Origin: Liolophura sinensis
Lineage: Eukaryota; Mollusca; Polyplacophora; Chitonida; Chitonidae
Assembly (NCBI RefSeq): GCF_032854445.1
Contig: NC_088300.1
Span: forward strand, 37,478,458 to 37,542,457
Direction of reading: 5' to 3'
DNA: 64,000 bases
Shown here: positions 15,001 to 58,262 of the stretch, in pieces
Layout: each line of letters opens with the position of its first letter
Numbering within the stretch: position 1 is the first letter of the stretch
Translations under genes and position numbers: made by a program
The notes under the pieces: model-generated
Told to the model about the DNA's origin: nothing
Seen by the model: only the letters and a program-made list of their open reading frames with translations
The model's database searches: none

Positions 15001-18000
15001 CGCTGTAAGTTCGTCAAGTTCTTCAAGGATGTTGATTATTCAGATGTCAAGCCTTGATCTTCATGCTGATAAGAAAAGGCAAAAAAAAAACTGTAGTTAT
15101 TGTATATCACCTAAAGTTTAGCTCTCTTTAAGTTTCGATTGATTCAGACTGATTTATCCACGTTATAGGACCACTCAGAGAGATTTTGTTCAAGTTTGAA
15201 TAATTTCTTATCTGAAAAAAAATGTTGGCATCAAAAATAGCATTTTGAGGGTTTTATATGCTTCTGAAAGTGCATTTTAATTTTTTACAGGCCAAAACCT
15301 TGTGAAATACAGCACTAGCTACTCAATATGACTACTGTTGCTCAGACTTGTGCAAATCTCATGTGACTTTCTGGATGTTAACACAAGGAATGCTAGTTGG
15401 TATCAGAGCACAGCACTGCAATCAATCTTGTCTTTTCACAGCCAAAATCACTGATAGCCAAATTTTCTTGATGTGTAAGGTTACTCAACACTTTGAGAGT
15501 GTTCCTCCTTTGTCCCTTACTCTGAATCTGTGGACAGTGTTGGACAGAGTTGGACAATGTTACCTTGCAGTTATCATCATCATCATCACCACCAGCTGGC
15601 TGTCTGTCACCCACTCAAAAGAGCTGACTTCGCATGTAGCTTACAGTCAAGTGCCAGGTCGCCTTGTCTTAGGTTGTCTCCCCTTCTGGGAGCCCTTACC
15701 CGTCCTCGGCTAAACTCTGGCAATCATGACCATGGAGGGGACCAGTTTGGTCTACATACCTCTCCATCTTAACACTTCCAATCTGATGGGCAAACTTTGC
15801 ACACATAAAAATGGTATAGGTTTACACAGAAACAGAGAAACCATCTCACTGCACAACATCGGGGATTCTTGAGGGAGGAAGACATCTTGAGATCTGTTTG
15901 ACTAGCTATAAAGCGACAGAATGTCATCTGTGTTGTTATCTGCTGTCTCACGGCACCACAATTCTGAGAATGGGGACAAAGGAGATCCTTTCTCTATCTT
16001 TATTTCCACTCTATCTGTCTAAGTAAAACAGGCAATTCTTTTCCAGCTCCAGGAGAAGACAAAGGCTTGATCTCTAAGACCATCAGCAAAGAATCGAGAA
16101 GGTTGAAGAACTTATTGCAGCATTGCATCGTGTTTTAGTTGTGCTCAGATGAGCAAGCACTGGTTAAGTCACGATCAATATTCAGAGAAATAATGACTTG
16201 GATGACAAGCAGAAGTTTACCTATCCATAATGATCTAGCTTAACCTGAAGCTGAAGTACAATAAGACATGAAAACTTTGAGCTTGACAATAGCACACACA
16301 TCACGTTGCCCTGGCACAGCGGTGTGCCACAGTGACCATGAACATCGGTTTCATCATGCTGACCAAGGGTAGTGTGCCACCTGGCAGACTTTGACCTTGA
16401 CAACAACACGCGCGTTGGTTTGATCATGTTGCCCTAGTTGAGTAATGTGCCACTCTGATCATGAACAGTAGCACACACATTGGTTTCATCATGTTGCCCA
16501 AGCATAGTGTGCCACCTGGCAGACTTTGACCTCAACAGCAACACGCGTTGGTTTGATCATGCTGCCCTGGTTGAGTAATGTGCCACTTTGACAGACTTCG
16601 ACCATGACAATATCACAGGGCTTGGTTTCATCATGATGCCCTTGTGTAATAGCATGCCACCTGACAGACAGAGTACCCTAAGTGGCCCAGGGTGTAGGTC
16701 CTCTCACGGCAAGCTGACAGGGTAGCACACAGGCTGGCACCCTTGCTCATTCCTCGTTACCTTATATAAGCCGATCTCTCCTTGTAGTTGTCACACAGAT
16801 CATTACCATCTAATACCAATTCTGTTAGTTTCCAGCCCCGGATTTTAGACAGTTCATCAACCAGTTTCAGCTGGACATGAAATGAAGAGAGAGAAAAAAA
16901 AAAAAAAAATGACAAAGCACTTTAATACATAATAAATAAAAAAGGGCACAGAATGAGTCTGACAACACAATGATAATGGTGTAGATGATTCCATACACAT
17001 TAATTAGAACGACTCAAAACCCAGTGAGATTACTACTGAATTTACACTATGTGATCTTATATTTCACACACAAACACAAATGTTCTAAAAATTACACTCT
17101 ACTTACGCAGTTTTTACCCAGGTTCAGATGAGTCATATTAGGAGTTTTGGATACCAGTGCTTTGAGACTGTCCAAGGACATAAGCCTATTGTTGCTGAGA
17201 TCCAAACTTGTCAACTGTCGGCAAGAAAACAGGGCCAAATTTTCACACACTTCCGTGTCATTAAAACTGAACACAAAATATGATTATGTATAAATGACTA
17301 AAATACATGTAAATCTGTAGCACCTAATTACTGTATGCCACTGTCATGGAAAATCATAGGATTTGGCTAGGTGGCTCCAAATTTTGTTAGCATACTAACA
17401 CAATATGGTTATTCATAGTGATTCTGATCAGAGAGAAGTGTGCGGTTGATTAGATTTTCTCTACTCAATGAGCAGGGAATGGATTTTAACTTGCACGAGA
17501 GATCACAAAGGTAGTATTTGAAAATAATGCATGACAAAATCCACACATTTTTCTATGAAACTAATGCATATGTACATGAGTGATGCACGTACATGAGTGA
17601 TGCATATGTACATAAGTGATGCACATGTACATGAGTGGTGCATACGTACATGAGTGATGCACGTACATGAGTGATGCATATGTACATGAGTGATGCACAT
17701 GTACATGAGTGGTGCATATGTACATGAGTGATGCACATGTACATGAGTGGTGCATATGTGCATAAGTGATGCACATGTACATGAGTGGTGCATATGTACA
17801 TGAGTGATGCACATGTACATGAGTGGTGCATATGTGCATAAGTGATGCATATGTACATAAGTGATGCACATGTACATGAGTGGTGCATATGTACATGAGT
17901 GATGCACATGTACATGAGTGGTGCATATGTACATGAGTGATGCACATGTACATGAGTGATGCACATGTACATGAGTGATGCACATGTACATGAGTGGTGC

Positions 18001-21000
18001 ACATGTACATGAGTGATGCACATGTACATGAGTGATGCACATGTACATGAGTGATGCACATGTACATGAGTGATGCACATGTACATGAGTGATGCACATG
18101 TACATGAGTGATGCACATGTACATGAGTGGTGCATAGGAACATAAGTGATGCACATGTACATGAGTGGTGCATATGTACATAAGTGATGCACATGTACAT
18201 GAGTGGTGCATATGTACATAAGTGATGCACATGTACATGAGTGATGCACATGTACATGAGTGATGCACGTACATGAGTGATGCATATGTACATAAGTGAT
18301 GCACATGTACATGAGTGGTGCATATGTACATGAGTGATGCACATGTACATGAGTGGTGCATATGTACATAAGTGATGCACATGTACATGAGTGATGCACA
18401 TGTACATGAGTGATGCACATGTACATGAGTGGTGCATATGTACATGAGTGATGCACATGTACATGAGTGATGCACATGTACATGAGTGATGCACATGTAC
18501 ATGAGTGATGCACATGTACATGAGTGGTGCATAGGAACACAAGTGATGCACATGTACATGAGTGGTGCATATGTACATAAGTGATGCACATGTACATGAG
18601 TGGTGCATATGTACCTAAGTGATGCACATGTACATGAGTGGTGCATATGTACATAAGTGATGCACATGTACATGAGTGATGCATATGTACATAAGTGATG
18701 CACATGTACATGAGTGATGCACGTACATGAGTGATGCATATGTACATAAGTGATGCACATGTACATGAGTGATGCATATGTACATAAGTGATGCACATGT
18801 ACATGAGTGATGCACATGTTAGAAATATAAACAACAAAAGTTTCTTGCGGTATTTCTAGAAGTTGATCACTATATAAATGAAACCTGCACAGATTAGAAT
18901 AAGACACCACAAAATGATTTCCAGCTAGCCATGCATGGATATGACACTAACAACAGTTAACTCATTAGGTCTCGGGAGCGGCTTAAGCTGCAGCCTAGCC
19001 ATTTGACGGCACCTCATTTCCCCGCGAGTGGCTTAAGCCGCATAAAACACTGTCTATTTTTCCACGGAAATTGGAATTTTTAGGGGCCTAAACCAATCAA
19101 ATGCTGCATAGAAGAGTCTTCCGACAAAGAGGAACTAACTTTAGGTCAATTACGCTCCAGAATCAACGAGAGACGCGAACCTGAACTATCGGAAACTGTA
19201 CCGTAACAACAACAACGCGAACTATGGAAACGCAATTTTACTCAAATCGAGAGATACACTGTTCTGATAAAGTGATTAATTTTATGTTTACACGCTTCAC
19301 AGAGCAAAAATACCAACTGCTACCGAATATCTTATTCTGGAATTATCCCAAAATCATAAAACAAAACCTTTGAATTTTTTAGTGCAAAATTGTATTTCTG
19401 CTGTGGCCTGCTGGGGACCAAGCGGTGACCAGGGTTGCAGTAGCGAGGGCTGTATGACGTTGTGGTAGCAAATGAGTTAATACCTCAGGAATATGCTCCT
19501 CTATGATCTTCACCACTTCATTCATGACATGGAATTTATTAAGAGCCAGGTGGATTCCTTCAGCAGAGAGTTCTGAAATATAATGAAGTACATAATCAAT
19601 GTTACCCATACAGTGTACAGCTCGATTCTGTTAGTTCTATTGATCTTAGAAAGGTGTTTTCAGGTTTGTTTTAGTTCTATTGATCTTAGAAAAGGGTTTT
19701 CAGGTTTGTTTGTTTTAGTTCTATTGATCTTAGAAAGGGGTTTTCAGGTTTGTTTTAGTTCTATTGATCATAGAAAGGGGTTTTCAAGTTTGTTTGTTTT
19801 AGTTCTATTGATCTTAGAAAGTGGTTTTCAGGTTTGTTTTACTTCCTAGAGTAGAGTATAGTAGATAATATCCTAATGGAAAGTGTAAGATTCAGTACCA
19901 AGGGTAACAGTTTGTAACATTCACATGTATTTGCCTCTAAAAATGTACTGAGTGAATTTTATTTCATTCATTATTTCATTGGAATTTTATGCCATACTCA
20001 AGAATATGATACTCCTGCAACAGTGACCAAGAATTAATTCAGTGAAAGAATTAAAAAATATTTCTGTAATTATTCCTCTAGTTATTTAAATAAACCCTAT
20101 ATAACCTTTTCATAAAATTGAAACTGAATCACCTCCCTTAATGAACCACCCACTTGTTGAATTTGCTTTCTTTTATCCTCAATTTCTACTGAATTGCTAA
20201 GATTCTCTAGCCAATACTTAGTTTATTTGTGTGTTTACTTTACTTTAGTCAAGGACATATTTTGCTGAAAGTTGGCACTGTTTAGGTCCTCAAAATGAGG
20301 TCAATGTACGACGTATTTTTTTTCAACACAACAAGATGAAGAGTGACAACTACAATTCACAGTTTGCCTTTTGAAATTAATCGATTTTGTCTAGGGCAAA
20401 GAGCGAAAATAGACTTTTTTGAGACCTTGAAAATTTGAAAGTGTGTGGCACCCAAATTGTGGCACCCAAACTGAGTGTAGTTACATGTACATAGCCGTTG
20501 TTGAAATTGAGTTTTTAACTTTAAATATCCAGTTTCAAATCATAAAATTGAATTTTAAATTCAACTGTACAAACTGAATACTGGTCAATAAATACAACAC
20601 GTATGAATCCCTTACTTAATCATGCTTAAAAATACATACTGCAACCTTCTGCAATTCATTGATGTTAGGTGAAACAAAATTCTGATTTACCACTAAAACT
20701 AAATTTCAATTACACAAACTGCACCCGGTTCTTTTACATGGACAATGACTGAATTTGGAATCCTCAAGTCACTATCATGCTGTAGAAAGCTGTATGGGCT
20801 GATGAAGTTCATCTGGATTGTCGGCTTTCTTCCAGACAGCCACACATGCATCTGTATAGGTATACAACAACGGTTAAATCAAAAAGTACTCCACTTACTT
20901 GGATCTTGGAACAAAGAACTAAGGTCCAATGCCTTTCCAGCAGCATCATATCGGTCACTCATGCACACCTGAGAAATCAACATCAAAGATATTCATCAAT

Positions 21001-34616: not shown

Positions 34617-34989
34617 CCTAAATGCAGTTCTGCACATCCCAGCTCTACGTTCTCTTCTTGAGCACGGTTCAGCAATATTTGCATCACGAGTATCATCGGT
34701 ATTAAAAACTCCATTAAAAATATACATTAACAAACATTCGATTTCATCTTCGTTTTCATTTATTTGCAGCAATACTCAGAGAAAGGGAAAACTATCTGTA
34801 CTAATTTGTGTAAATGTTACACTCACCTCCACAATACTTCTGTGTTCTCATTCTATACTGAGAGATACTACAAAAAAAAAATTTTTTTTTTTAAGACGGC
34901 AACCATTTACTTGTTGACACGGGGACTGTAGGCTTACAGATGGACATTCTTAATATAACCAGCCCTATACTTATCTATTTAGTGTATCT

Positions 34990-36050
34990 GAATGTCCAGT
35001 TCCCTCAAGTAGATGGCTCCATATAGTATCTATACAGTGTATCTGAATGTCCAGTTCCCTCAAGTAGATGGCTCCATATAGTATCTATACAGTGTATCTG
35101 AATGACCAGTTCCCTCAAGTAGATGGCTCCATATAGTATCAATACAGTGCATCTGAATGACCAGTTCCCTCAAGTACCGTAGATGGCTCCATATAGTATC
35201 TATACAGTGTATCTGAATGACCAGTTCCCTCAGTAGATGGCTCCATATAGTATCTATACAGTGTATCTGAATGACCAGTTCCCTCAAGTAGATGGCTCCA
35301 TATAGTATCAATACAGTGCATCTGAATGACCAGTTCCCTCAAGTACCGTAGATGGCTCCATATAGTATCTATACAGTGTATCTGAATGACCAGTTCCCTC
35401 AAGTAGATGGCTCCATATAGTATCTATACAGTGTATCTGAATGGCCAGTTCCCTCAAGTAGATGGCTCCATATAGTATCTATACAGTGTATCTGAATGAC
35501 CAGTTCCCTCAAGTAGATGGCTCCATATAGTATCTATACAGTGCAACTGAATGACCAGTTCCCTCAAGTAGATGGCTCCATATAGTATCTATACAGTGTA
35601 TCTGAATGACCAGTTCCCTCAAGTAGATGGCTCCATATAGTATCTATACAGTGCATCTGAATGACCAGTTCCCTCAAGCAGATGGCTCCATATAGTATCT
35701 ATACAGTGCAACTGAATGACCAGTTCCCTCAAGTAGATGGCTCCATATAGTATCTATACAGTGTATCTGAATGACCAGTTCCCTCAAGTAGATGGCTCCA
35801 TATAGTATCTATACAGTGTATCTGAATGACCAGTTCCCTCAAGTAGATGGCTCCATATAGTATCTATACAGTGTATCTGAATGACCAGTTCCCTCAAGTA
35901 GATGGCTCCATGTAGTATCTATACAGTGTATCTGAATGACCAGTTCCCTCAAGTAGATGGCTCCATATGGTATCTACAGAGCGTATCTGAATGACCACTT
36001 CCCTCAGTATATGGCTCCATATAGTATCTATAGGCCTACAGTGTATCTGA
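34990..36050. repeat. 55-bp tandem satellite, about 19 copies, in the NXF1-TIMM50 spacer
   Basis: The block TCCCTCAAGTAGATGGCTCC recurs at 35001, 35056, 35111, 35166, 35226, 35280, 35335, 35395, 35450 and onward every 55 bp to 36000. Two 60-bp units carry an extra CCGTA, and the order of variant units around 35111-35280 repeats at 35280-35450, which is a three-unit higher-order duplication. The last units are more diverged, as expected at the array edge. Confidence 0.97.
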
Positions 36051-44400: not shown

Positions 44401-47400
44401 TCACCAGCCTCCTAGTGTAATGTAATACTGCTACTCAATTCTAGATTCTGGGTCAAATCCCTGCCCTAATTTTTCAACCTTTTCAACCCTGCAACATTAT
44501 TTTGAAACATTCTGAGAGAACTGTGGGGTGTAGAGAAGTAATTTGCGTAGTTTGATTGAAGCTTGCATCTTTTATGACACAAACAAATCATTTTTTGCCC
44601 CATTTTCATAATAATTGTACACATAACTTCCACTGAAAATGTGCTTTTCTGGTTGAAAGGATTGAAGATGTACAGTAAATAGTAGTTTCTGTTGTTATTT
44701 TAGTCAGATACTCCGGTAACTGAAATTGTTCATGAGCAGTGGACATATTTGTTTGAATGTTCTGATGCTAAAACAAAATACATTCACCTGTATTGTTTTG
44801 ACAGCAACTGTGTGCTGTTTCTTTGACTGTGATACAATACGGTGTCATCAAAACTGTTTATAATGCACTGTTAGTTGAGATAAATTAATTGTTGTGGAAT
44901 CGTGTGATTTTTTAAAAAAAAATAATGCATTAAAGGATAGTGGTTGATGTTAACATCCTGTATATGTGTAAATAGAAACACAACATAAAGCATAAAAAAT
45001 TGCAAAACAAATGATTTAGAATGGAACTAATACTGTCAGATATGAATGACCTGATCATGACTGCTGTTTGCTTTGAACATTGTTGAATTAGATCTGACTC
45101 CAGTTGTGGCAAATTTTTGTTTCTTTTGCAGATGAAAGATGAATTTTCTGAATGTAAGTATTTTGATAAGGGAAAAGAATAATGTCCATTTGTATAACAT
45201 TTACCCTGTGAGGGCTCTTCACAATTTTTTTGGATGTTGGCTGGTTTACTTCTTTGTTCAGTCTTGTAATCTTGTAAAAAAATTACCAATATTTCCTTTT
45301 TATTTACTTATTTTTTTTTTTAGTCAACTTTGACTGAAGAATATCATCGTAATCATTTGGTAATAATATTTGATGAGCTTAAAATCTATGTTCCAGTAGG
45401 AAGCCTGTCAAAAATGAACATAACTGGACAACTCACTCCAAACTGATTTCATCTATTTATTTGATTGGTGTTTTACACCGTACTCAAGAATGTTGTACAC
45501 ACTTGTATGACAACGGCAAACGTTACGGACTGCCTATTTGACTTCTCACGGCTGCGTAACTCTTAACTATTGAGCCAAAAGCAGTGAAATTCACTGTTGT
45601 GCTCTTCCACACCTGATCACAATGAAAACAGTGCAGATGACATTTCAGAAGTCCTTATTTAGTTCGTCAGCTGAGAAAGGTCTGTCCATAATTGTACACT
45701 GGATACCTGCATAATCTCTAAAATGATGATCAAAGTCAGCGTGTTTTGTCCGTCTCTAAAACATTCACAACGGAATACATATTAAATTTCCTTATGCATG
45801 TATAAATAATAGCTGTACAAGGCCTATCCATTTCCTGCGAGTAATGGCTGATGATGCTTTAATTCTATATTGCAAACGTGTTGTCTCCTATATATGAATC
45901 TTTAGACCCAAGTTTGTATGTGAGAAAACCCTTTAACGTGCTAGAATTTCCGCTTTCAGAGGTTTGTTTGGCTCTGAAAAAGATTCTTTGTTGGAAGTCA
46001 TACTGTGGCTATATCGTCAGATCTTCTCACCATGGGCTGGAGTTTGCTCATGTACCTTAAATCCCCCGGAAGATATTTATTTATTTATTTATTTATTTCA
46101 TTGGAGTTTTACGCCGTACTCAAGAATATTTCACTTATACGACGGCAGCCAGCATTATGGTGGGTGGAATCCGGCAGAGCCCTGGGGAAACCCACAACCA
46201 TCCGCAGGTTGCTGCAGACCTTCCCACGTATATGGCCCTGAAGATATATTCACATGGGATCTCAGGCCACCTTCTAGACCGCCCTGTTCTGGAGGAGATT
46301 CTGTCAACAGATTCTGTACAGTACCACACTAAAAAAAATGCCTGTGCCAACAGTAAACTGGCCAGAGATATAGGTGTAGGCCGCATTGTATGGTACAGTA
46401 TACACAAAATATGTACACACCCATGTCCTTGAAACATACAAAGTCATTTGAGACCTGCCACAGCATTGGTCATCTTACAGCCATTGAAAACATAGGGTTT
46501 TCAATGTGTTATAATGTGATCAGGTTCAGTTTTAGTGAGAGGAAGCGTCCTTTGTTGTTGTGATCTCTCAAGGAAGAAATAAAATTAATTAGTGGATTGC
46601 ATGAAGGGGTCGGCAAGTTTAGCACTGTTAGACAGGTGCTGACCTAGAAAGGTTGACCTGATTTCACCGATTTGGAATCCCTGCTTGAGACATTCAGCAT
46701 TGTGCGATGGGTGTGATCAAACTCGTCTTACGATTATGACGCATCACGGTGGGAATTTCAGGAAATTATGGATTTAAAGGAATATCTGTGCAGTTTTAAT
46801 CTCGGCCATATGCGGTACTGCTGAGGCACCACTCAGATTTAGGGGTTAACACTGCAAATCTTCAGCCCTGCGAGCGTTGTCTATACCTATGCCACTCATC
46901 ACGCGGTCTGCTGGCAAGTGCTTGGTCTTGTGAAAACAGGTTCGTCCCTCTACACGCGGCATGTGCTTCTTATGTACGGATAGCTCGAAGCAATGTTGCA
47001 GAGTTGTGATGTCATACAGCAAACTGCCTCATTTTTGAACCTGAAAATGTTGTGGAAATACAGTAATGACACTTGCGTATAGGGGTCGCTATTTTGAAGA
47101 GCTGCAGAGTTGATGGATTTTCATTAACAAAGCTTCATTCTTCTTTTTTTTTCAGTATCTAGCGTGGTTGCTTATTTCAAACGAGCAGCAAGAGAGTTTG
47201 ATTTGTACAAAAAGGTGAGGAAAGCATCTTTGCGTTAATTGAGTTTTTATACAAGTAATGATTAGTATTATTATCATTACATGTAACTCAGTTGTTAAAC
47301 AAATGACAAGAGTGACAGTTACTTTGTATGATACTGTTTCACAAGTTGACCACTACATATACATTTGAGCATTAAATTTGTGCTTTGTTGAGTAGACGAA

Positions 47401-50400
47401 CAAAAGATGTAAATGTAATGGTACTTAACAGTTTGTGTTTTTCGGTAAGTGTTAGAGTATCCCTCAGGTTCATAAAGGCCTTGAAAACGTTGAAAAGCCT
47501 GGAATTTGAGTAGACAAACAAAATTTGTAAATGTAATGGTACTTAACAGCTTGTGGTTCCAGCAGGTGTTAGAGTATCCCTCAGGTTCATAAAGGCCTTG
47601 AAAACCTTGAAAAGCCTGGAATTTGAAAGTAACTTTTCTAGGCTGTGAAAAGCCTGAAAAATAAGCATGGAAACCGAGACTACAGATTTCATATAGGCTA
47701 GGGGTAGTAGTATGCTGACATTCTCATGGAGAAATGTGTTTTCCAGCATGTTTCAAATTGCCTAGTGCCTTGTACAAACTGAACTAAGAAAAGTCATCAT
47801 GCATTGCTTTAAGTATGTATAAGTGCAGAATATTCATTCCAAGTAGCAAATTGAAGTGATACTGGAAAAAGTGATTTATGGGCCTGGAAAAGCCTAGAAA
47901 AATGCTATAAATTTGAAATCTTTGAAGTGTTTAAAACCTGATCCCTCTTTATTACCTACCCCTGACAGAAAAGTAAATGTTCAAAAAGTGGAAAGAACAT
48001 ATGTAACTGTAGGTAACAATATATACATATACTGGATGTTCATGGGGAATTTTGTTGAGCAAGAACAGTTGCAAAGTATAAAGGACTACAGGTATATAAA
48101 GTGGAAGTAATATTCTGTTAATTAAAAGGTAAACCGTTTGTTGTGTCTTTTTCACATTTATGCGCATATGCTGCAGGTTCTCCCATTGCTTGTGTCTGTC
48201 AAGCTGTTTTACTGTGAAGAGCTCAGGCATAAAAGCAGACAAACACCATGTATTTTCTTCGCCGTACTCGAGAATATTTCACTTATATGAAGGCAGCCAG
48301 CATTATGGTGGGAGGAAACCGGGCAGAGCCCGGGGGAAACCCACAACCATCCACAGGTTGCTGACTTACCTTCCCACTTACGACCGGAGAGGAAGTGAAC
48401 TCACAGCGACCGCATTGGTGAGAGACTCCTGGGTCATTATGCTGTGCTAGCGCGCTAACCAACTGAAACACCATTTATGCCAAGATACTGAAAACATTGA
48501 ATTCATAGAATTGTAAACTTTTTTTGTGAATTTGCAATTGATCTTCCTACATTGTAGTAGTTAACTTTTTACACCTACTTTCATATATCTGCATTCCTTA
48601 AAACAGGAGGTACAGTGTAAATACAAATGTTAAATCTGATTCGAAATAGAAAAAGTTAAATGGATTTGTCTGTGTTTGTGCCTGAACTATTAATATATCC
48701 TTCGTTCCTGTTGTTGTTGTCAGATGATTCGTGACCCGTCCAGTGAGAAGTTGTTACCTGACCCACTGGGTGAGCCCTATTATCAGCCTCCCTACACGCT
48801 TGTCTTGGAGATGACAGGAGTCCTCGTCCATCCTGACTGGACTGTGAGTTACCCCCCTTTGAATGCAAAGTTAATTTTCTCAGAGCTTGTACTCCATTCC
48901 TCATCTCATACCTGAAGCCACTGAACTGCTCTTGCAGAGATTTAGGAAATTGGAATGCATACAGAAGATTAGGTCAGTCAAAGAATAAGAGTAAGCAACA
49001 AGCCACACTCAGAGTATCATTGGATATACCTCACTGCACTTTTTATTTTACCTCGTCATTAACACTAGCTCATTCTCTTTTATGGGCCTTCTTGGGGAAT
49101 TCCCCATGACACGAAATTTACCAGCTGCATCAGCCAGTGAAGCATATCTAAACACACCAGCTGTTGTACAATAGAATGTTTACCTGAACTGTGGCAGTAA
49201 AATCCCTGGGGGAATTCTCCATCACATGTAATATGGGTGGAAACCCAACCGCAGTCAGTTTATGCTCTAGTATGTTGATAAGGCTGACCAGTAGGAATAC
49301 TAAAACAATGATGTCTTCTAAAATTTTGAAGGCACTGGTTAATCAGCAGTTGTTATTTTCTTCACTTTGATTTGATGAGTGAGCACTTTTTGAAGTGCTT
49401 TCCTTTACCACTCAGTTTACACACAAGTTTTTTTAAATGAGACTATATTTGCCAAATCAGCTTTCTGAAAAGCTTTCAGTATATAGTCTTGTTGAAAATT
49501 TCTTTTTTAATCTCCCTTAGGGGTCTTGTCAAATTTGAATGTGGAGTCATTTATGTTGCCATTGAGCTTTAAGTTGGATTACACAATAATATTTTGTGGA
49601 TGGATTTTCCATGTCTTCAAGGCATTTTGAAGATTTGATTGGCTCACTGATAACTGGGTCACTAGGCTTCTTGATTAGAAAATGAGATTTTATTTATCAG
49701 CAGGTATAGCAAATAGCATGGAGAGGTTTAGCAGCTGATATTATGAGTGTAGCAAAGAAAGTATGTGGAGAACTGCTTGAAAGATTTTTATTAGATTTAT
49801 TGCATTATGATATATTGTGTTACTGTTCAGTTCTGATGAAATTTTGCATTTTGTTGGACCTTAACAATACGTCTGTGTGAGTGTTCTTTTTCAGATCAAA
49901 TCTTTTTTGTGATTTATAGTGTTACTTACATTTGAAATTGTACTATTAATTACAAAATATGTAGTGTTAATAAAAACAATGTTAATTCCTAAGTAAAGTT
50001 TTTGATCTCAAAAATCCCTATGTGTGCCATTATGAGGAGCAGTTTGCATTATACTTATAGGGCATGGCTTTTGTTAGTAATCACAGAGTCTTGTCTCATT
50101 TCAGTATGGTACAGGCTGCAGGTTTAAAAAGTGACCTGCATGGCTTTAGTTAGTACTCATGGAGTCTTATCTCATTTCAGTATGGTACAGGCTGGAGGTT
50201 TAAAAAGCGACCTGGAGTGGATAACTTCCTGCAGCAGATTGGGCCACCTCTGTTTGAAGTGGTCATCTATACCTCAGAACAGGGATTTGTAAGTCTCACA
50301 TCATTAGCTGCACTTCCTGCAACAGATTGGGCCACCTCTGTTTGAAGTGGTCATCTATACCTCAGAACAGGGATTTGTAAGTTTCACATGATTAGCTTCA

Positions 50401-53400
50401 CTTCCTGCAGCAGATTGGGCCACCTCTGTTTGAAGTGGTCATCTATACCTCAGAACAGGGATTTGTAAGTCTCACATCATTAGCTTCACTTCCTGCAGTA
50501 GATTGGCCCGCCTCTGTTTGAAGTGGTCATCTATACCTCAGAACAGGGATTTGTAAGTTTCACATGATTAGCTTCACTTCCTGCAACAGATTGGGCCACC
50601 TCTGTTTGAAGTGGTCATCTATACCTCAGAACAGGGATTTGTAAGTTTCACATGATTAGCTTCACTTCCTGCAACAGATTGGGCCACCTCTGTTTGAAGT
50701 GGTCATCTATACCTCAGAACAGGGATTTGTAAGTCTCACATGATTAGCTTCACTTCCTTCAGCAGATTGGGCCACCTCTGTTTGAAGTGGCCATCTATAC
50801 CTCAGAACAGGGATTTGTAAGTCTCCCATGATTAGCTGCACTTCCTGCAACAGATTGGGTCACCTCTGTTTGAAGTGGTCATCTATACCTCAGAACAGGG
50901 ATTTGTAAGTCTCGCATGATTAGCTTCACTTCCTGCAGTAGATTGGCCCGCCTCTGTTTGAAGTGGTCATCTATACCTCAGAACAGGGATTTGTAAGTCT
51001 CACATGATTAGCTTCACTTCCTTCAGCAGATTGGGCCACCTCTGTTTGAAGTGGTCATCTTTCCTCAGAACAGAGATTTGTAAGTCTCACATCATTAGCT
51101 TCACTTCCTTCAGCAGATTGGGCCACTTCTGTTTGAAGTGGTCATCTATACCTCAGAACAGGGATTTGTAAGTCTCACATGATTAGCTTCACTTCCTGCA
51201 GCAGATTTGGCCGCCTCTGTTTGAAGTGGTCATCTATACCTCAGAACAGGGATTTGTAAGTCTCACATGATTAGCTTCTCCTCCTGCAGCAGATTGGGCC
51301 ACCTGTGTTTGAAGTGGTTATCTATACCTCAGAACAGGGATTTGTAAGTCTCACATGATTAGCTTCACTTCCTTCAGCAGATTGGGCCACCTCTGTTTGA
51401 AGTGGTCATCTATACTTCAGAACAGAGATTTGTAAGCCTCACATCATTAGCTTCATTCCAAGTATAACCATTGATGATGTTGGAAGGTGTGGTACATTTT
51501 GGGGGGTTGGTTGTCACAAAGTGCACAAGTGTTCACAGTATTCAGAGATAAAGGAGTCCCTTTCTTAATCTCAATATCTCTGGAATCATTTTTTTTTTTT
51601 CAAGATAAACCAGGTTCAGGACATTGCAAATGGAACTGGTGATGAATTTGTGAAAGGAAGATATGCTATCTTTGCATGCATTGCTTAGGTCTTCTGTCTT
51701 GTTTTGTAGACTGCCTATCCTATCCTGGACAGCTTGGATCCTAATGGTTACATCATGTACAGACTGTTTCGTGATGCCACAAGGTACATGAATGGCCATC
51801 ATGTCAAGGTGGGTTCACATGCACTGATTATAACAGAATGTGGATAACTCTAGTCCCTTCATTTTCTTCACCCATAAACCTGATCACAGTCACACATCTG
51901 AAACATTGTTTAGTACGCCATAAAACAAATTAATCTAGTGTGTAAAAAGTTTGGCATAGTGTGCTTGCTTGTTGGCTGACTGGACAAGTAGTCAGTAAAG
52001 ACTGATAACTAAGGTAGCCTTCATCTTTTCTCAAATGTATATTAAATTTCCCTTATCTTCAGTTGCTCTGGGGGCCAGTGGCAGAGGGCATTAACAAGCC
52101 AACACGGCGCAATGACCCTGGTGCCTCTTACCAATGCGGTTGCTGTGAGTTCAAGTCCAGCTTATGCTGACTTCCTCTCCAGCCGCAAGTGGGAAGGCTG
52201 CTAGCAACCTGCAGTTTCCCCCCACCATAATGCTGGCCGCCGTCCTATGAGTGAAATATTCCTCAGTGAGGCGTGAAACACCTATCAAATAAATAAATAT
52301 ACCATTTGCTATGCGATGTGGCATTAGGCCTTAATCATTCATTCATTCATTCAGTTGCTGTGAGATGTTGATTTTGTGGGGGGTTTTTTTTTTTTGCTTT
52401 TCTTTTTAGGATTTAAGTTGCCTGAACCGAGATTTGTCAAAAGTGATTATCGTAGACTGGAATGAGGAGTCGTATCGTCTTCAGCCGCGTAATGCTCTAG
52501 GTGTAAAACGCTGGACTGGTAATGATGAGGACAGAACCCTGATGGATCTGGCACAGTTCCTTAGAAGTATGTATAACAGAGCAGTGCCTCCATGTAGTCA
52601 TGCCCCATAAACGTGTTCAGATCAACAAACTTGCAGAAATACATGTACATGCAAAATTCGGAAAGAAGCATGGTTTCCTTTTCACCTGATCAGATACGTT
52701 TGAGTTAGGAAGATTAACTCTGTTCAGAACTTTGACCACAGTAGAACAGAAAACTCTGAAGACCATCAGCAAAGAGTTGTGCTTAAAGGGATACGTGATT
52801 GATACTGATTGGTTGACAATGGGAACAGCGTTTCCTGGGTTAAATCCTGCAGCCTTGTTCACGCTTGAATAAATCTGACATACCTTAAGTTCAGCGGAGG
52901 CTAGGCATAGCCTGGACTTGCATATCTCTCACACCAGCCAATCAGAATCGACAAGGCATAGCCTGGACTTGCATATCTCTCACACCAGCCAATCAGAATC
53001 GACAAGGCATAGCCTAGACTTGCATATCTCTCACTCCCAGCCAGTCAAAATCAATATTGTATCCCTTTAAGATGTGTGTTTAAGATAAAATCGAGTATAG
53101 CAAAGAATAATGACAAAAAATTACAGTTCTGGTCAGGTGTGAAGTCTTTCCATTAAAGTGAGTTGGATACATCAGTCAAGCTTCTGGCATATGTGTGCAT
53201 ATACATGTGCATGCCAGGCAATGGTTTTTGCGATTTGCTTATGATAGCGAGGGGATGAGGGTGTAAAAAAGTGCATGATTTGTGCATACCTTGTTAATGG
53301 TTTCACCAGTGCTGTGATATAATTAGTTTGAGTTTCACGCACTGCAAATGGCAATGGCAAATCTCATAGACCTTTTCATTGACACAAGCGTATAATTCTC

Positions 53401-56400
53401 TCACGTTTGACATCAGTGAGTATTAATTTGCATGGCATGTCCTACATAGTATATTTATAGTTGCTCAAAATGAACATCTAAAGCCATGAAATAAATCAGA
53501 AGGACAGTATATCCAAGTTCCATTATTAAGTTGTGTGCAGTTTGTGCTGTCTGATGTTTGTCGGTCTTCAAACAGTATGGTGTGCGTACCTCTACACCAT
53601 TTGAGGGTATTATACAGTTTGTTAGCAACTTGCCAATGGTCAGTGGTTTACTCCGTACCCTCCATTTTCCTCCATCCATAAAACTTAACCGTCATCATGC
53701 ATACATGTACAACTGAAATATTTTTGAGTATGACAAGCAATAATCCAGCATTGCAGTCATTTCCGTGAGATTATATTGAGTACAGCATATAAAGTACGTT
53801 GATGTCCTTGAAATGATTGTATCATTGTATTATATGTCAGTCTATCATCTGGTAATCACATGTTCAGTGAAGGTTGCCAAAGTAGAGAGCTGTGTCTTGT
53901 TGTTGTAGCTGTGGGCATGAGTGGTGTAGAGGATGTCAGAACAGTACTAGACTACTACAAGCAGTTTGATGACCCTATAGGAGCTTTTAAAGAAAACCAA
54001 CAGAAACTTCAGGTTTGTCATCTATGAGTTTTCCTCACTCACTAGCCCAGCGTAGTGACCCAGAAGCCTCTCACCAATGCGATCGCTGTGAGGTCAAGTC
54101 CAGCTCATCCTGGCTTCCTCTCCGGCCGTACGTGGGAAGGTCTTGCAGCAACCTGCGGATGGTCGTGGGTTTCCCCCGGGTTTTGCCTGGTTTCCACTCA
54201 CCATAACACTGGCCGCCGTCTAAGTGAAATATTCTTGAGTATGACGTAAAACACCAATCAGTTAAATAAAGAAATAAATTTATGAGTTTTTCTCAGTCTT
54301 GAGATGCCACTTGAGGGTATACTGAATCCCTTTTACAGTTGAGGTCACATTGTAATACCTGTCCTCTACCTTAGGGGCAAAAATTTACGGCAACTTTTTT
54401 TAGCACTCGACATATTCTTAATGGTAGTTGTAAAAATAGTACATCAATTTCCTTTGACATACAATACAGCCATTTCCTTTGACATACAGTACAGCCATTT
54501 CCTATGACATAATGTACAGCCATTTCCTATGACATAATGTACAGCCATTTCCTTTGACATACAGTACAGCCATTTCCTATGACATAATGTACAGCCATTT
54601 CCTATGACATAATGTACAGCCATTTCCTTTGAAATACAGTACAGCCATTTCCTATGACATAATGTACAGCCATTGCCTATGACACAATGTACAGCCATTG
54701 CCTTTGACATACAGTACAGCCATTTCCTATGACATAATGTACAGCCATTGCCTATGACACAATGTACAGCCATTGCCTTTGACATACAGTACAGCCATTT
54801 CCTATGACATAATGTACAGCGATTTCCTTTGACATACAGTACAGCGATTTCCTATGACATAGTGTACAGCCGGAGCGAAACCTTAAATCCTGTGCCCATT
54901 GTGGACAAAGGACGGTCGGGGTATTATACGCCAACCGTCCGCATATCATATGTCGACCGTCTATGGATCATACACATACCCTCCACGGATCATACGCGGA
55001 TAATGTTTCCCTCCTTACATGCGTGGTGATGCCATCCTACAGCCACCATACATAGATGATAAATCTTGATGAGAGTTTATTATCATTGTGAAGTACTGTT
55101 TTCTGGCACACCTTCCAATCAGGTGAAGCTGGACTGGCATGCTGATTCCAGTCATGTTTCAAAAAGGGAAAATTGATGAGCTCTTTATAATCTGATTATA
55201 CATTTTTCTACATAGCCAAGCCATAATAAATCCCCAAGGGGACACTTTACATTATTATGTAATCTGTTGCAGACATCTGTAATTTCAAGTGTGCATCCAT
55301 GTTTGCCATTTTCGAACATGTGCTTGTGAGTAGTGAGGACCGAAAGGCCTGTTTTCGACAGCCGTTTGTTTTATGCATAGAGCTGTGTTATAGATATTTC
55401 GGTCCTCAAAACTGCCATGAAATTGAAGCGCGTTTGGCGAGGATTGAAAGGCCAGGGTGTTCTATTTTCAACAACTAATGTACACAATGCATGGAGCTGT
55501 GTGATGAAAATACTGATGTGACCTTACGAACCTCCCACGTGTAAAGCTGTGTTAATTTTTGCTCAGCAGCGATAGAGAGTACAGGGTCGTGGCATTGGGA
55601 CAGATTTCCATAATTTTATAAGGCTTATTGCCCATGACAGCCTTTATGATTAAACTAGCGCAGCTTTATTGGATGTAGATTGACTTTCACTCCTCCATCA
55701 CAGTTTTACAGGGAAGTATATCTGTAAACTGAAACTAGAATTGTTTGCCTATTGGTTAGTGTCATAAAACCATACCCTGATCGTAGCACCATATTGCCCT
55801 TGTATGGTCCGCATATGGTTAGGATCCAGCTGTAGGCCTACTGTAGTTTGATATTTGAATTGATCCGTAAAATAAAACATTTTCCAACGTCACCCTTGTA
55901 AAATACTATTTACAATGGAAACACAAAATGGCAGTGTAAGTGTCGTTTTTATTGAAAGCAAAGTTGGGTAACGCACTAGCGCAGCGCAATGACCATGGAG
56001 CCCCTCAGCAATGCGGTCGCTGTGAGTTCAAGTCCAGCTCATGCAGGCTTCCTCTCCAGCTGTATGTGGGAAGGTCTGGCAGCAACCTGCGGATGGTCGT
56101 GGGTTTTCCACCACACCCCCCTCCCTGGGCAGAGCCCGGTTTCCTCCCACCATAATACTGGCCGCCGTAGTATAAGTTAAATATTCTTGTGACAGTTTGG
56201 TGAAACATTGGTGTAAAATACCAATCAGATAAATAAATAAATGCTGAAAGCAGAAGAATCAATCATGATTTAAAATGGTGTAGAATTCAGACTTTTTTTG
56301 CATTTCTTGGAGCATTAACTACATATATCCGCTGTGTTTTTGCTGTAGGAGGAGCAGTCCAAACAAGCCCTGAAGTCCAAGGATGCGCCCAGTTCTTCAT

Positions 56401-56435
56401 TTTTATCTTCCCTGTCAGCTAGAAAGAGATTATAG
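38399..56435 (+). CDS. TIMM50: TIMM50, receptor subunit of the mitochondrial TIM23 translocase, complete, 11 exons
   Basis: TIM50 sits in the inner mitochondrial membrane, receives presequence proteins from the TOM complex and passes them to TIM23. Exons: 38399-38655, 41314-41474, 43929-43960, 45132-45153, 47156-47214, 48724-48843, 50181-50288, 51710-51808, 52410-52566, 53909-54012, 56349-56435. They sum to 1206 nt, giving 401 aa plus TAG. All introns are GT-AG and phases agree throughout. Residues 1-85 form a basic, acid-poor start ([19 protein letters not shown]) typical of a matrix-targeting presequence. One membrane helix lies near 116-138, and the FCP1/NIF-like domain spans about 195-340 with [38 protein letters not shown] and CLNRD. 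As in animal TIM50 generally, the DxDx(T/V) phosphatase motif is not conserved. The start codon context is AAAATGG. Exon 7 is the seed of a large tandem array. Confidence 0.96.
40109..40259 (+). mobile_element. 5'-truncated SINE, TIMM50 intron 1
   Basis: It keeps the core from CACGTGGGAAGGTCTGGCAG to the AAATAAAT tail. ACAGGCACTGTC and ACAGGCACAGTC flank it (40097-40108 and 40260-40271). Confidence 0.88.
40490..40730 (+). repeat. Dispersed repeat family X, copy 4
   Basis: AGAGTTCTATTGATTTTAGAA, GTTTTGAGGTTTGCTTGG, AAAATTGTAGATTTCAGCAC and CTCTAAAAATGCACATTTG match the copy at 7612 in order. Confidence 0.7.
41095..41240 (+). mobile_element. Diverged truncated SINE just before TIMM50 exon 2
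   Basis: GTATGTGGGGACG, CCACCATAATGCTGG and GGAATATTCTTGAGTACC match the family core. The copy lies within 75-220 nt upstream of exon 2. Confidence 0.75.
41940..42575. mobile_element. Non-autonomous element with a hairpin and ~120-156-bp internal period, TIMM50 intron 2
   Basis: TAGCTCGCCTGTA is followed by a perfect stem-loop (GCCTGTA, loop ACAAAG, TACAGGC at 42153-42172). Then AGTGCTGCATGTATTG (42255), AGTACTGCATGTATTG (42411) and CACTTCATGCATTG (42532) mark three diverged internal repeats. Bivalve pearl-type elements also have tandem cores of about 160 bp; placing it there is inference. Confidence 0.4.
43353..43619 (+). mobile_element. Full-length tRNA-derived SINE with 11-bp target duplication
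   Basis: It starts GGGGCCTCCGTGGCTCAGTTGG and has a B-box-like GAGTTCAAGTCC, a conserved core with CCACCATAATG and TATAAGTGAAATATTCTTGAG, and an AAATAAAT tail. It is flanked by CTTGTGTTGGT (43342-43352) and CTTATGTTGGT (43620-43630). It lies in TIMM50 intron 2. Confidence 0.93.
43806..43912 (+). mobile_element. SINE 3' fragment directly before TIMM50 exon 3
   Basis: CTCCCACAATAATGCT, GTGAAATATTCTTGGGTATGG and an AAATAAATAATAAAT tail. It ends 16 nt before exon 3, so it supplies part of the intron's 3' end. Confidence 0.75.
43929..47214 (+). CDS. TIMM50: TIMM50 exons 3-5, including a 22-nt microexon
   Basis: Exon 3 (43929-43960, 32 nt) reads [10 protein letters not shown]. Exon 4 (45132-45153) is a 22-nt microexon reading MKDEFSE, flanked by TTCTTTTGCAG and GTAAGTATT. 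Exon 5 (47156-47214) reads [19 protein letters not shown]. The phases are 1-0, 0-1 and 1-0. This is the region that links the membrane helix to the receptor domain, corresponding to the IPDEFDND-type segment of vertebrate TIM50. The microexon is supported by phase, splice sites and the conserved DEF. Confidence 0.8.
44497..44675. repeat. Dispersed repeat family Y, copy 2, TIMM50 intron 3
   Basis: GAAACATTCTGAGAGAACTG, GTGGGGTGTAGAGAAG, ACATAACTTCCACTG and GATGTACAGTA match the copy at 2005. Confidence 0.6.
45448..45537 (-). mobile_element. SINE 3' fragment, TIMM50 intron 4
   Basis: TATTTATTTGATTGGTGTTTT and ACCGTACTCAAGAATG identify the tail and the end of the core. Confidence 0.75.
46077..46239 (-). 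mobile_element. 5'-truncated SINE, TIMM50 intron 4
   Basis: It has the core and a long (TTTA)n tail read on the plus strand. GAAGATAT flanks it at 46069-46076 and 46240-46247. Confidence 0.87.
47391..47627. repeat. Direct tandem duplication, about 119 bp x 2, TIMM50 intron 5
   Basis: GTAAATGTAATGGTACTTAACAG ... AGAGTATCCCTCAGGTTCAT ... AAAAGCCTGGAATTTG occurs twice in a row, with a few substitutions. Confidence 0.9.
48256..48471 (-). mobile_element. SINE without its tail, TIMM50 intron 5
   Basis: It runs from GCCGTACTCGAGAATATTTCAC through the core to the tRNA-like head GCGCGCTAACCAACTG. The A-rich tail is absent. Confidence 0.85.
48724..52566 (+). CDS. TIMM50: TIMM50 exons 6-9: FCP1/NIF-like receptor domain
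   Basis: Exon 6 (48724-48843) carries [20 protein letters not shown], the most conserved block of the family. Exon 7 (50181-50288) reads [16 protein letters not shown] and ends [10 protein letters not shown]. Exon 8 (51710-51808) has [15 protein letters not shown], and exon 9 (52410-52566) has [18 protein letters not shown]. Exons 6, 7 and 8 are all phase 0 at both ends, so skipping exon 7 or including extra phase-0 units would keep the frame. Exon 7 is followed directly by 13 further copies of its 3' half. Confidence 0.94.
48844..50046. other. TIMM50 intron 6, left part, nothing recognised
   Basis: AT-rich intron sequence of about 1.2 kb with no repeat I could match elsewhere in the window, up to the duplicated exon half. 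Confidence 0.5.
50047..50180 (+). repeat. Duplicated 5' half of TIMM50 exon 7 with its acceptor (decoy)
   Basis: The sequence TCTCATTTCAG|TATGGTACAGGCTG occurs twice, with the exon borders at 50105 and 50181, 76 bp apart. The upstream copy has TGC for TGG and TGA for the CGA arginine codon, so splicing to 50105 would give YGTGCRFKK and a stop. It is therefore a non-functional or regulatory decoy. Confidence 0.9.
50225..51460 (+). repeat. 88-bp tandem array of a partial TIMM50 exon with its splice donor, 14 copies
   Basis: The 54-nt coding block CAGATTGGGCCACCTC... (18 codons, [18 protein letters not shown]), its GTAAGT donor and 34 nt of intron recur with a period of 88 bp. Blocks start at 50235, 50323, 50411, 50499, 50587, 50675, 50763, 50851, 50939, 51027, 51114, 51202, 51290 and 51378. 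The first belongs to the real exon 7. One unit is 87 bp long. Each unit begins after CTTCCTGCAG, CTGCAACAG or CTTCAG, which resemble acceptors. Units 4 and 9 share the variant TAGATTGGCCCGCC, a sign of multi-unit duplication. Confidence 0.97.
52078..52301 (+). mobile_element. Diverged SINE, TIMM50 intron 8
   Basis: The head (GGGCCAGTGGCAGAGGGC) is diverged, the B-box GAGTTCAAGTCCAGC is present, and an internal deletion removes part of the core. The tail is AAATAAATAAAT. Confidence 0.83.
52783..53070. mobile_element. TTAA-flanked MITE with three internal 51-bp tandem units, TIMM50 intron 9
   Basis: The left end TTAAAGGGATAC and the right end GTATCCCTTTAA form inverted repeats that continue imperfectly for about 30 bp. 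Inside, the unit GGCATAGCCTGGACTTGCAT... starts at 52904, 52955 and 53006. The TTAA at both ends suggests a piggyBac-type target site. Confidence 0.65.
53600..53755 (+). mobile_element. Old subfamily SINE-related copy, TIMM50 intron 9
   Basis: AACTTGCCAATGGTCAGTGG, CCTCCATCCATAAAAC and GAAATATTTTTGAGTATGAC match the older subfamily. Both ends are indistinct. Confidence 0.55.
53909..56435 (+). CDS. TIMM50: TIMM50 exons 10-11: C-terminal segment
   Basis: Exon 10 (53909-54012) reads [18 protein letters not shown], matching the [19 protein letters not shown] block of vertebrate TIM50. Exon 11 (56349-56435) encodes a short polar tail ending LSARKRL and stops at TAG 56433-56435. The intron between them holds two SINE copies and a 25-bp minisatellite. 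Confidence 0.92.
54038..54280 (+). mobile_element. SINE, nearly full length, with 15-bp target duplication
   Basis: It has the family core and tail, and lacks the first ~30 nt of the head. It is flanked by TATGAGTTTTCCTCA (54023-54037) and TATGAGTTTTTCTCA (54281-54295). It sits 26 nt past TIMM50 exon 10. Confidence 0.9.
54445..54870. repeat. 25-bp minisatellite, about 17 copies, in TIMM50 intron 10
   Basis: CAGCCATTTCCTATGACATAA alternates with CAGCCATTTCCTTTGACATAC variants at 25-bp spacing. The minus strand stays open (MSKAMAVHC / [10 protein letters not shown] translations), a by-product of the repeat. Confidence 0.95.
55964..56244 (+). mobile_element. SINE copy with internal insertions, TIMM50 intron 10
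   Basis: It starts near GGTAACGCACTAGCGCAGCG and ends AATAAATAAATGC. TGAAAGCAAAG and TGAAAGCAGAAG flank it. A C-rich insertion near 56110 and a short insertion before the tail set it apart. Its end is about 100 nt before the last TIMM50 exon. Confidence 0.88.
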
Positions 56436-56940: not shown

Positions 56941-58262
56941 CTCAGTGCGGCAGCAGCGCTGGTGAAATACGAACCCAACTCTGTGACAGCATAACTTGTG
57001 AAGGAGAGACCCAACTCTATGGCAACAGTGCTGGTGAAGAACAGATCCAACTCTGTGGCAGCAGAGCTGGTGAAGGACAGACCTAACTCTGTGGCAGCAG
57101 AGCTGGTGAAGGAGAGACCCAACTCTGTGACAACAGAGCTGGTGAAGGAAAAACCAACTCTGTGGCAGTAGAGCTGATGAAGGACAGACCCAACTCTGTG
57201 GCAACAGAGCTGGTGAAGGACAGACCTAACTCTGTGGCAGCAGAGCTGGTGAAGGACAGACCTAACTCTGTGGCAGCAGAGCTGGTGAAGGAGAGACCCA
57301 ACTCTGTGACAACAGAGCTGGTGAAGGAAATACCCAACTCTGTGGCAGTAGAGCTGATGAAGGACAGACCCAACTCTGTGGCAACAGAGCTGGTGAAGGA
57401 CAGACCTAACTCTGTGTCAGCAGAGCTGGTGAAGGACAGACCTAACTCTCTGGCAGCAGAGCTGGTGAAGGACAGATCCAACTCTGTGGCAACAGAGCTG
57501 GTGAAGGACAGACCTAACTCTATGGCAGCAGAGCTGATGAAGGACAGATCCAACCCTGTGGCAGCAGAGCTGGTGAAGAACAGATCCAACTCCGTGGCAG
57601 CAGAGCTGGTGAAGAACAGACCCAACTCTGTGGCAACAGAACTGGTGAAGGACAGACCTAACTCTGTGGCAGTAGATCTGGTGAAGGACAGACCTAACTC
57701 TGTGACAGCATAACTTGTGAAGGACAGATCCAACTCTGTGGCAACAGAGCTGATGAAGAACAGACCCAACTCTGTGGCAACAGAGCTGGTGAAGGACAGA
57801 CCTAACTCTGTGGCAGTAAAGCTGGTGAAGGACAGACCCAACTCTGTGGCAGCAGAGCTGATGAAGAACAGACCCAACTCTGTGGCATCAGAGCTGGTGA
57901 AGGACAGACCTAACTCTGTGGCAGCAGAGCTGATGAAGAACAGACCCAACTCTGTGGCAGCAGAGCTGGTGAAGGACAGACCTAACTGTGGCAGCAGAGG
58001 TGGTGAAGGACAGACCCAACTCTGTGGCAGCAGAGCTGGTGAAGGACAGACCTAACTCTGTGGCAGCAGAGCTGGTGAAGGACAGACCTAACTATGTGGC
58101 AGCAGAGCTGATGAAGGACAGACCCAACTCTGTGGCAGCAGAGCTGGTGAAGGACAGACCCAACTCTGTGGCAGCAGAGCTGGTGAAGGACAGACCTAAC
58201 CTTGTGGCTGCAGTACTGGTGAAGGAGAGACCCAACTCTGTGGCAGCAGGCCTGGTAAAGGA
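56941..58262. repeat. 36-bp minisatellite downstream of TIMM50, about 36 copies
   Basis: The unit GTGGCAGCAGAGCTGGTGAAG plus GACAGACCTAACTCT repeats every 36 bp. On the plus strand it reads as a 12-residue repeat VAAELVKDRPNS. The frame is broken by GCATAA stops (near 56990 and 57710), a 1-nt loss near 57150 and a 2-nt loss near 57987. The minus strand also stays open for long stretches (ELGLSFTSSAAT). A 5-unit (180-bp) higher-order duplication is seen, for example 57129 against 57309. It lies 0.5 kb past the TIMM50 stop and may be in its 3' UTR. I favour a non-coding array. Confidence 0.9.

Follow-up and report, generated by a model that had tools for sequence, protein, structure and literature searches.

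Does the repeated exon border in the TIMM50 gene of the chiton Liolophura sinensis supply the animal with additional exons, or is it a repeat that grew across a splice site and is removed as intron? The stretch analysed here (the window) comprises 64,000 nucleotides of contig NC_088300.1 (positions 37,478,458 to 37,542,457, forward strand) in an assembly first issued under the name Liolophura japonica, since corrected to L. sinensis (PMC11068029). Within it, the end of TIMM50 exon 7 and the beginning of the following intron are repeated in tandem 14 times. An earlier note on this DNA regarded the repeats as extra exon-like units among which the cell might choose, and named plain satellite growth as the alternative. 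The latter fits the evidence better, and the array is very probably a neutral minisatellite with a splice donor caught up in it by chance, of the type described as mirages in amphioxus.

The array occupies positions 50224 to 51459 of the window on the + strand, as delimited by Tandem Repeats Finder (TRF) and by alignment of the units, and with a period of 88 bp, 14.1 copies, 94% matches and a score of 2185 it lies far beyond chance. The 14 units and the 88-bp period given in the earlier note were also recovered by counting donors, since GATTT/GTAAG occurs 14 times at a spacing of 88 bp with a single 87-bp step. GTAAG is retained in 14 of 14 units and the full GTAAGT in 13, in agreement with the claim that most units keep it, and unit 14 reads GTAAGC. 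Each unit combines 65 nt from the end of exon 7 (from ACTTCC) with the 23 nt that open intron 7, starting with GTAAGT. The division into 54 nt of exon and 34 nt of intron proposed previously has the same period, cut at CAG, but the segment really repeated is 65 + 23 nt. The 10-nt microhomology ACTTCCTGCA, which had been linked to an initial slippage, is merely the start of the unit; after the last unit the sequence reads CTTCATTCCAAG, leaving at most an imperfect A/TTCC match. A DNA search of the whole genome, which skips very common words, returned the array itself as its single match.

Unit 1 belongs to the genuine exon. Its exon-derived part (50224 to 50288, 65 nt, + strand) lies within true exon 7 (50181 to 50288, + strand), which has 108 nt, encodes 36 residues in phase 0 and was identified by tblastn, by splice sites and frame, and by the Pfam NIF and TIM50 chain alignments. 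The donor GTAAGT at 50289 to 50294 (+ strand), present also in units 2-13, is regarded as the true one because of the conserved protein. Joining the first donor to exon 8 gives a conserved TIM50 protein that covers the whole Pfam NIF profile (1-160, E 5e-40) and aligns to TIM50 chains of known structure (E 4e-38), with no insertion at the end of exon 7 and with the frame intact from the first donor. These matches, together with tblastn, bear out the identification of the gene as TIMM50. Intron 7 (50289 to 51709, + strand) measures 1421 nt, 82% of which is array. Six TIMM50 coding exons were placed on the + strand of the window, between 48724 and the stop codon that ends at 56435, by tblastn with a human TIMM50 probe, together with splice sites and frame. 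This probe did not reveal the N-terminal exons, and the exon numbers (6, 7, 8 and so on) therefore follow the earlier note.

The extra units do not have the look of exons kept by selection. Relative to the consensus, units 2-14 contain 18 distinct variants across the 65 exon-derived columns, and six, in five columns, among the 23 intron-derived ones (Fisher p = 1.0); counted as tokens, the variants amount to 29 of 845 exon-derived and 10 of 299 intron-derived positions (p = 1.0). Synonymous changes make up 6 of the 16 distinct classifiable codon changes against 30% expected (p = 0.59), in a small test of 16 changes whose expectation derives from our own transition weighting. The 18 residues encoded by the exon-like part are unchanged in just 4 of the 13 extra units (2, 3, 5 and 6). 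The intact phase ascribed to every unit did not hold: the mini-exons of unit 4 (50488 to 50575, + strand) and unit 9 (50928 to 51015, + strand) do start with TAG, as the earlier note had observed, and unit 10 (51016 to 51102, + strand) has only 87 bp, with a 1-nt deletion that shifts the frame. The TAG of units 4 and 9 stands at the first acceptor and would be avoided if the second acceptor, three bases downstream, were used, and units 2, 5, 6 and 8 are without the first AG. With the exception of unit 10, each unit has 54 nt from CAG (or TAG) to the donor. Choice among extra exon-like units thus received no positive support from the equal variation of both parts, the synonymous fraction, the two stops and the frameshift.

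Mutually exclusive tandem exons likewise consist of several similar exon-like blocks in a row. In the TIMM50 array, however, the 3' part of the exon alone is repeated and the sign of purifying selection is absent: a tandem alternative exon would be complete in each copy, and the unit holds only the last 65 of the 108 exon nt; it would also show coding constraint, and what is seen is no synonymous excess, stops in two units and a frameshift in a third.

The variation among the units is instead concerted, because units 2 and 5 are identical in the unit alignment (88/88) and units 4 and 9 differ at a single site (87/88). The near-identity of these non-adjacent units therefore points to reshuffling within the minisatellite, as expected of turnover. 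Concerted change, repeats of minisatellite size, and a border of a real gene with its splice signal are features that the array has in common with mirages. Tandem repeats over exon-intron borders have been described under this name in amphioxus for Adh3, the globins BflGb6 and BflGb9 and troponin C, with a similar case in PGBD5, their units comprising an exon end, the splice signal and intron, ranging from 10 to about 160 bp and occurring at either border (PMC3087553, PMC3902484). The same sources report that the BflGb6 units are 81-100% identical, with 6 and 3 copies in its two haplotypes and turnover within the clusters, and that mirages vary in length and leave regular splicing intact. It has also been proposed that new introns can arise from mirages (PMC3087553). 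The TIMM50 array shares with them the tandem arrangement of exon end, splice signal and intron, the near-identity of the units and the tandem turnover. It differs in occurring in a mollusc and not in a cephalochordate, which is a difference of range and not of anatomy, in its 14 copies compared to 6 and 3 in BflGb6, in affecting both borders of one exon, and in being known here from the DNA of one assembly.

The duplication at the other border of exon 7 had been missed by the earlier note. An extra upstream copy of the acceptor border lies at 50062 to 50137 (+ strand; TRF period 76 x 2) and consists of 43 nt of intron and 33 nt of exon. Within the two-copy region 50062-50214, it is identical to the copy at 50138-50213 at 69 of 76 positions, and its exon part carries a W to C change and a TGA stop. 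Both borders of exon 7 have therefore been affected by tandem duplication.

Other reported cases resemble the TIMM50 array in part. The idea of Rogers that introns are gained when AG/GT proto-splice sites are duplicated, which has been tied to mirages (PMC3087553), likewise involves duplicated coding sequence and splice signals with the potential for a new exon and intron, whereas the TIMM50 array enlarges an existing intron and a new intron position is not demonstrated. Human internal tandem repeats at exon-intron boundaries (PMC2812944) are also border minisatellites, able to activate cryptic splice sites; unlike the TIMM50 array, they are reported from genes of primate segmental duplications and were compared with transcripts. 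The association of intronic minisatellites with alternative splicing in Caenorhabditis elegans (PMC4039745) was set aside as a different case. No report of mirages in a mollusc was found among the open-access papers listed, searched mostly by title and beginning of abstract in a collection with few subscription journals. The word 'minisatellite' is absent from the main text of two chiton genome papers (PMC11068029, PMC7850002) and of a comparison of five chitons (PMC12005716), and in a cone-snail intron paper it is mentioned in the reference list only. As far as the literature searched goes, the TIMM50 array is thus a mirage-type minisatellite in a new phylum, and one that recurs in the sampled loci of this genome.

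This recurrence was established by a survey of exon borders elsewhere in the genome, covering 128 of 263 exon matches taken best-scoring first (TCP1 48 of 50, kinesin 40 of 132, myosin 40 of 81), in which border-spanning arrays were sought by TRF, a recurrence test and reading together. Such arrays were found at 12 of the 128 loci, which shows that a border-spanning array is not special to TIMM50 and accords with the satellite growth that the earlier note had offered as its alternative. Eight lie on the donor side (L012, with 11 donor copies found, L020, L023, L034, L052, L071, L091 and L099) and four on the acceptor side (L104, L107 with 14 copies, L039, and L021, which is marginal and includes a few exon bases only). 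TRF missed L071, and for L020, L034 and L099 it located the array merely in the neighbourhood of the match; reading or the recurrence test recovered all four. Reading also added L039 and L099 and graded L021 marginal. Two loci (L063, L112) were left out of the count as their Pfam match extended beyond the exon into intron sequence, and eight (L019, L035, L050, L083, L088, L093, L097, L106) as their array is intronic and merely near the exon. Arrays make up 8.9% of the 202,971 bases surveyed, overlapping loci making some bases count twice. Three of the loci (L012, L020 and the marginal L021) belong to one TCP1-family gene region (C8:53404471-53413982), in which three border-spanning arrays lie at different exons.

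In the automatic recurrence test, in which a 24-mer on the border had to match again at 20 or more of 24 positions within 240 bp, recurrence was seen at 7 of 88 donors, 2 of 106 acceptors and 2 of 127 exon middles. The exon borders were called by our own crude scores, and the score cut-off removed 40 donors and 22 acceptors, out of 128 each; the TIMM50 donor (1.81) would fail it too. In the introns the test was positive at 157 of 1292 positions 30-180 nt downstream and at 93 of 1543 positions upstream, positions within one locus being non-independent. On the donor side the recurring share is about 1% within the exon, 8% at the donor itself and 8-16% further into the intron, and the border forms no maximum; on the acceptor side it is 9% at 200 nt upstream, 2% at the border and about 1% once the exon is entered. 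Recurrence at the borders is thus no higher than in the intron beside them, and it seems that arrays can form at any place outside coding sequence and are tolerated where the original splice site survives. The presence of a splice border within the TIMM50 array looks like chance in a genome with minisatellite-rich introns.

Under this reading, a segment made of 65 nt from the end of exon 7 and 23 nt from the beginning of intron 7 would have undergone tandem duplication, after which slippage, conversion or unequal exchange would have expanded and reshuffled the array to 14 units. Unit 1 would have remained the real exon end, with its donor spliced to exon 8, and the other 13 units would be removed as intron. 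We infer the donor used by the cell, the neutrality of the array and the mechanism of its growth from these observations, and the effect of the array on TIMM50 is probably nil or small.

Several observations weigh against a purely neutral array. Its copy number comes from one assembly, and instability between individuals is presumed. The splice signals of the units are also good ones: on a crude scale, the acceptors at the unit borders score 3.99 (units 3, 4, 7, 9-12 and 14) and 4.71 (unit 13) compared to 3.39 for the true exon 7 acceptor, in agreement with the acceptor-like borders described in the earlier note, and the donors of units 2-13 score the same as the true donor, 13 of 14 being perfect GTAAGT. 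Since the unit acceptors score no worse than the true one and the unit donors equal it, cryptic use of these sites would be plausible, and it is from sequence that we infer the silence of the extra units in splicing. Moreover, the excess of donors over acceptors in the automatic test (7/88 vs 2/106, p = 0.08) is not explained by chance position alone. By reading, the comparison is 8 vs 3 of 128 with L021 excluded (p = 0.22), and selection against extra upstream acceptors, if these are more harmful, may be the source of the excess.

Four other explanations were weighed. One is that the units are tolerated but leaky, so that low-level cryptic splicing would give mostly premature stops and copy number would set the amount of TIMM50 mRNA. 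The 14 competing donors, 13 of them equal in score, are in line with it, as is the TGA at 50343, inside unit 2, at which the frame would end if exon 7 were spliced from a later donor; a human intronic variable number tandem repeat in ABCA7 has been reported to affect splicing (PMC5954066). Published mirages, on the other hand, are reported to leave regular splicing undisturbed (PMC3087553, PMC3902484), and we regard leakiness as unlikely. The use of later donors by exon 7 was rejected in view of the same stop in unit 2. It is very unlikely that the units act as optional 54-nt mini-exons, with exon 7 joined to a non-adjacent unit (3 or later), the 18 residues re-inserted and TIMM50 isoforms formed. 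Such splicing would draw on the acceptor-like CAG born where intron end and exon end fused, which in nine units scores at least as high as the true acceptor, and on the 54-nt length of every unit but the tenth. The introns from donor 1 to successive units would measure 34, 122, 210 nt and so on; the 34-nt gap hinders the joining of neighbouring units, which the earlier note rightly judged unlikely, and only these, as exon 7 would reach unit 3 or later across an intron of at least 122 nt. Exon 7, unit 3 and exon 8 stay in frame, the 18 residues being repeated where the unit is intact, so that a unit spliced in as an 18-residue exon is possible on the sequence. Against it stand the lack of visible coding constraint, the defects of units 2, 4, 5, 6, 8, 9 and 10, the few units with unchanged residues, and the duplication of a core stretch of the domain that the insertion would presumably cause. 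A swap of one unit for exon 7, as the earlier note had suggested, would be no true swap, as the first 18 of the 36 residues of the exon would be lost.

That splice borders are preferred birthplaces of minisatellites, through a property of the donor sequence or through transcription, might be suggested by the 12 loci in the survey and by the greater frequency of donor-side arrays. The recurrence profile, however, climbs from exon through donor to intron without peaking at the border; splice borders do not look like preferred birthplaces, and we consider this explanation very improbable. An assembly artefact is the remaining concern, given a published coverage of merely 14x (PMC11068029) and another contig of the assembly that carries mitochondrial DNA as a tandem concatemer. 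Yet the high-fidelity (HiFi) reads average 8,347 bp (PMC11068029), several times the 1.24-kb array, which should be resolved for this reason; shared and private variants distinguish the units, and positions 50000-51800 contain zero N. An artefact is therefore extremely improbable, and a neutral mirage-type minisatellite remains our preferred explanation.

The other TIMM50 exons, all on the + strand and placed by tblastn, splice sites and frame, are exon 6, which precedes the array exon (48724 to 48843, phase 0 at both ends), exon 8 (51710 to 51808), exon 9 (52410 to 52566), exon 10 (53909 to 54012) and the last coding exon with its TAG stop (56349 to 56435). Upstream of exon 6 lies a 117-bp two-copy repeat (47388-47626, 90% matches), with CGGTAAGTG in one copy and AGCAGGTG in the other. 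About 0.5 kb past the TIMM50 stop, a 36-bp x 36.6 array (56949-58262) has long open frames on both strands because its period is divisible by three. The window is otherwise rich in minisatellites, including 19 bp x 66 at 17564-18819 and 55 bp x 19 at 34972-36032, and Rfam and tRNA scans of it gave zero matches. A GFP-family search of the genome, in which a control was equally silent, gave no match. The mitochondrial contig mentioned above (C99, loci L002-L005; 108,685 bp) contains COX1 seven times, one match being partial, in steps of about 15.5 kb, and this concatemer is probably an assembly artefact. COX3, ND3, ND2, COX1, COX2 and ATP6, whose proteins were recognised by our own reading, lie on one strand of it, unlike the nad2-to-cox3 block described as inverted in L. 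japonica (PMC12111177). The mitochondrial gene order obtained from this reading is consistent with a mollusc.

An eye-catching oddity of TIMM50 is thus explained as ordinary repeat turnover. It could also be imagined that minisatellite growth copies exon ends and donors into introns at a considerable fraction of exons and so maintains a standing stock of mini-exons, some of which (such as TIMM50 units 3 or 13) would be spliced, with isoform lengths tracking copy number; this is very unlikely but, if true, the splicing of such units would show exons and introns at the moment of their origin. With mirages at about 1 in 10 sampled exon loci of a mollusc, the idea that mirages lead to introns becomes testable at scale, and the chiton genome, which lends itself to comparison with RNA, offers a large number of real splice sites that were duplicated, apparently independently, and in which copy-number variation is likely.

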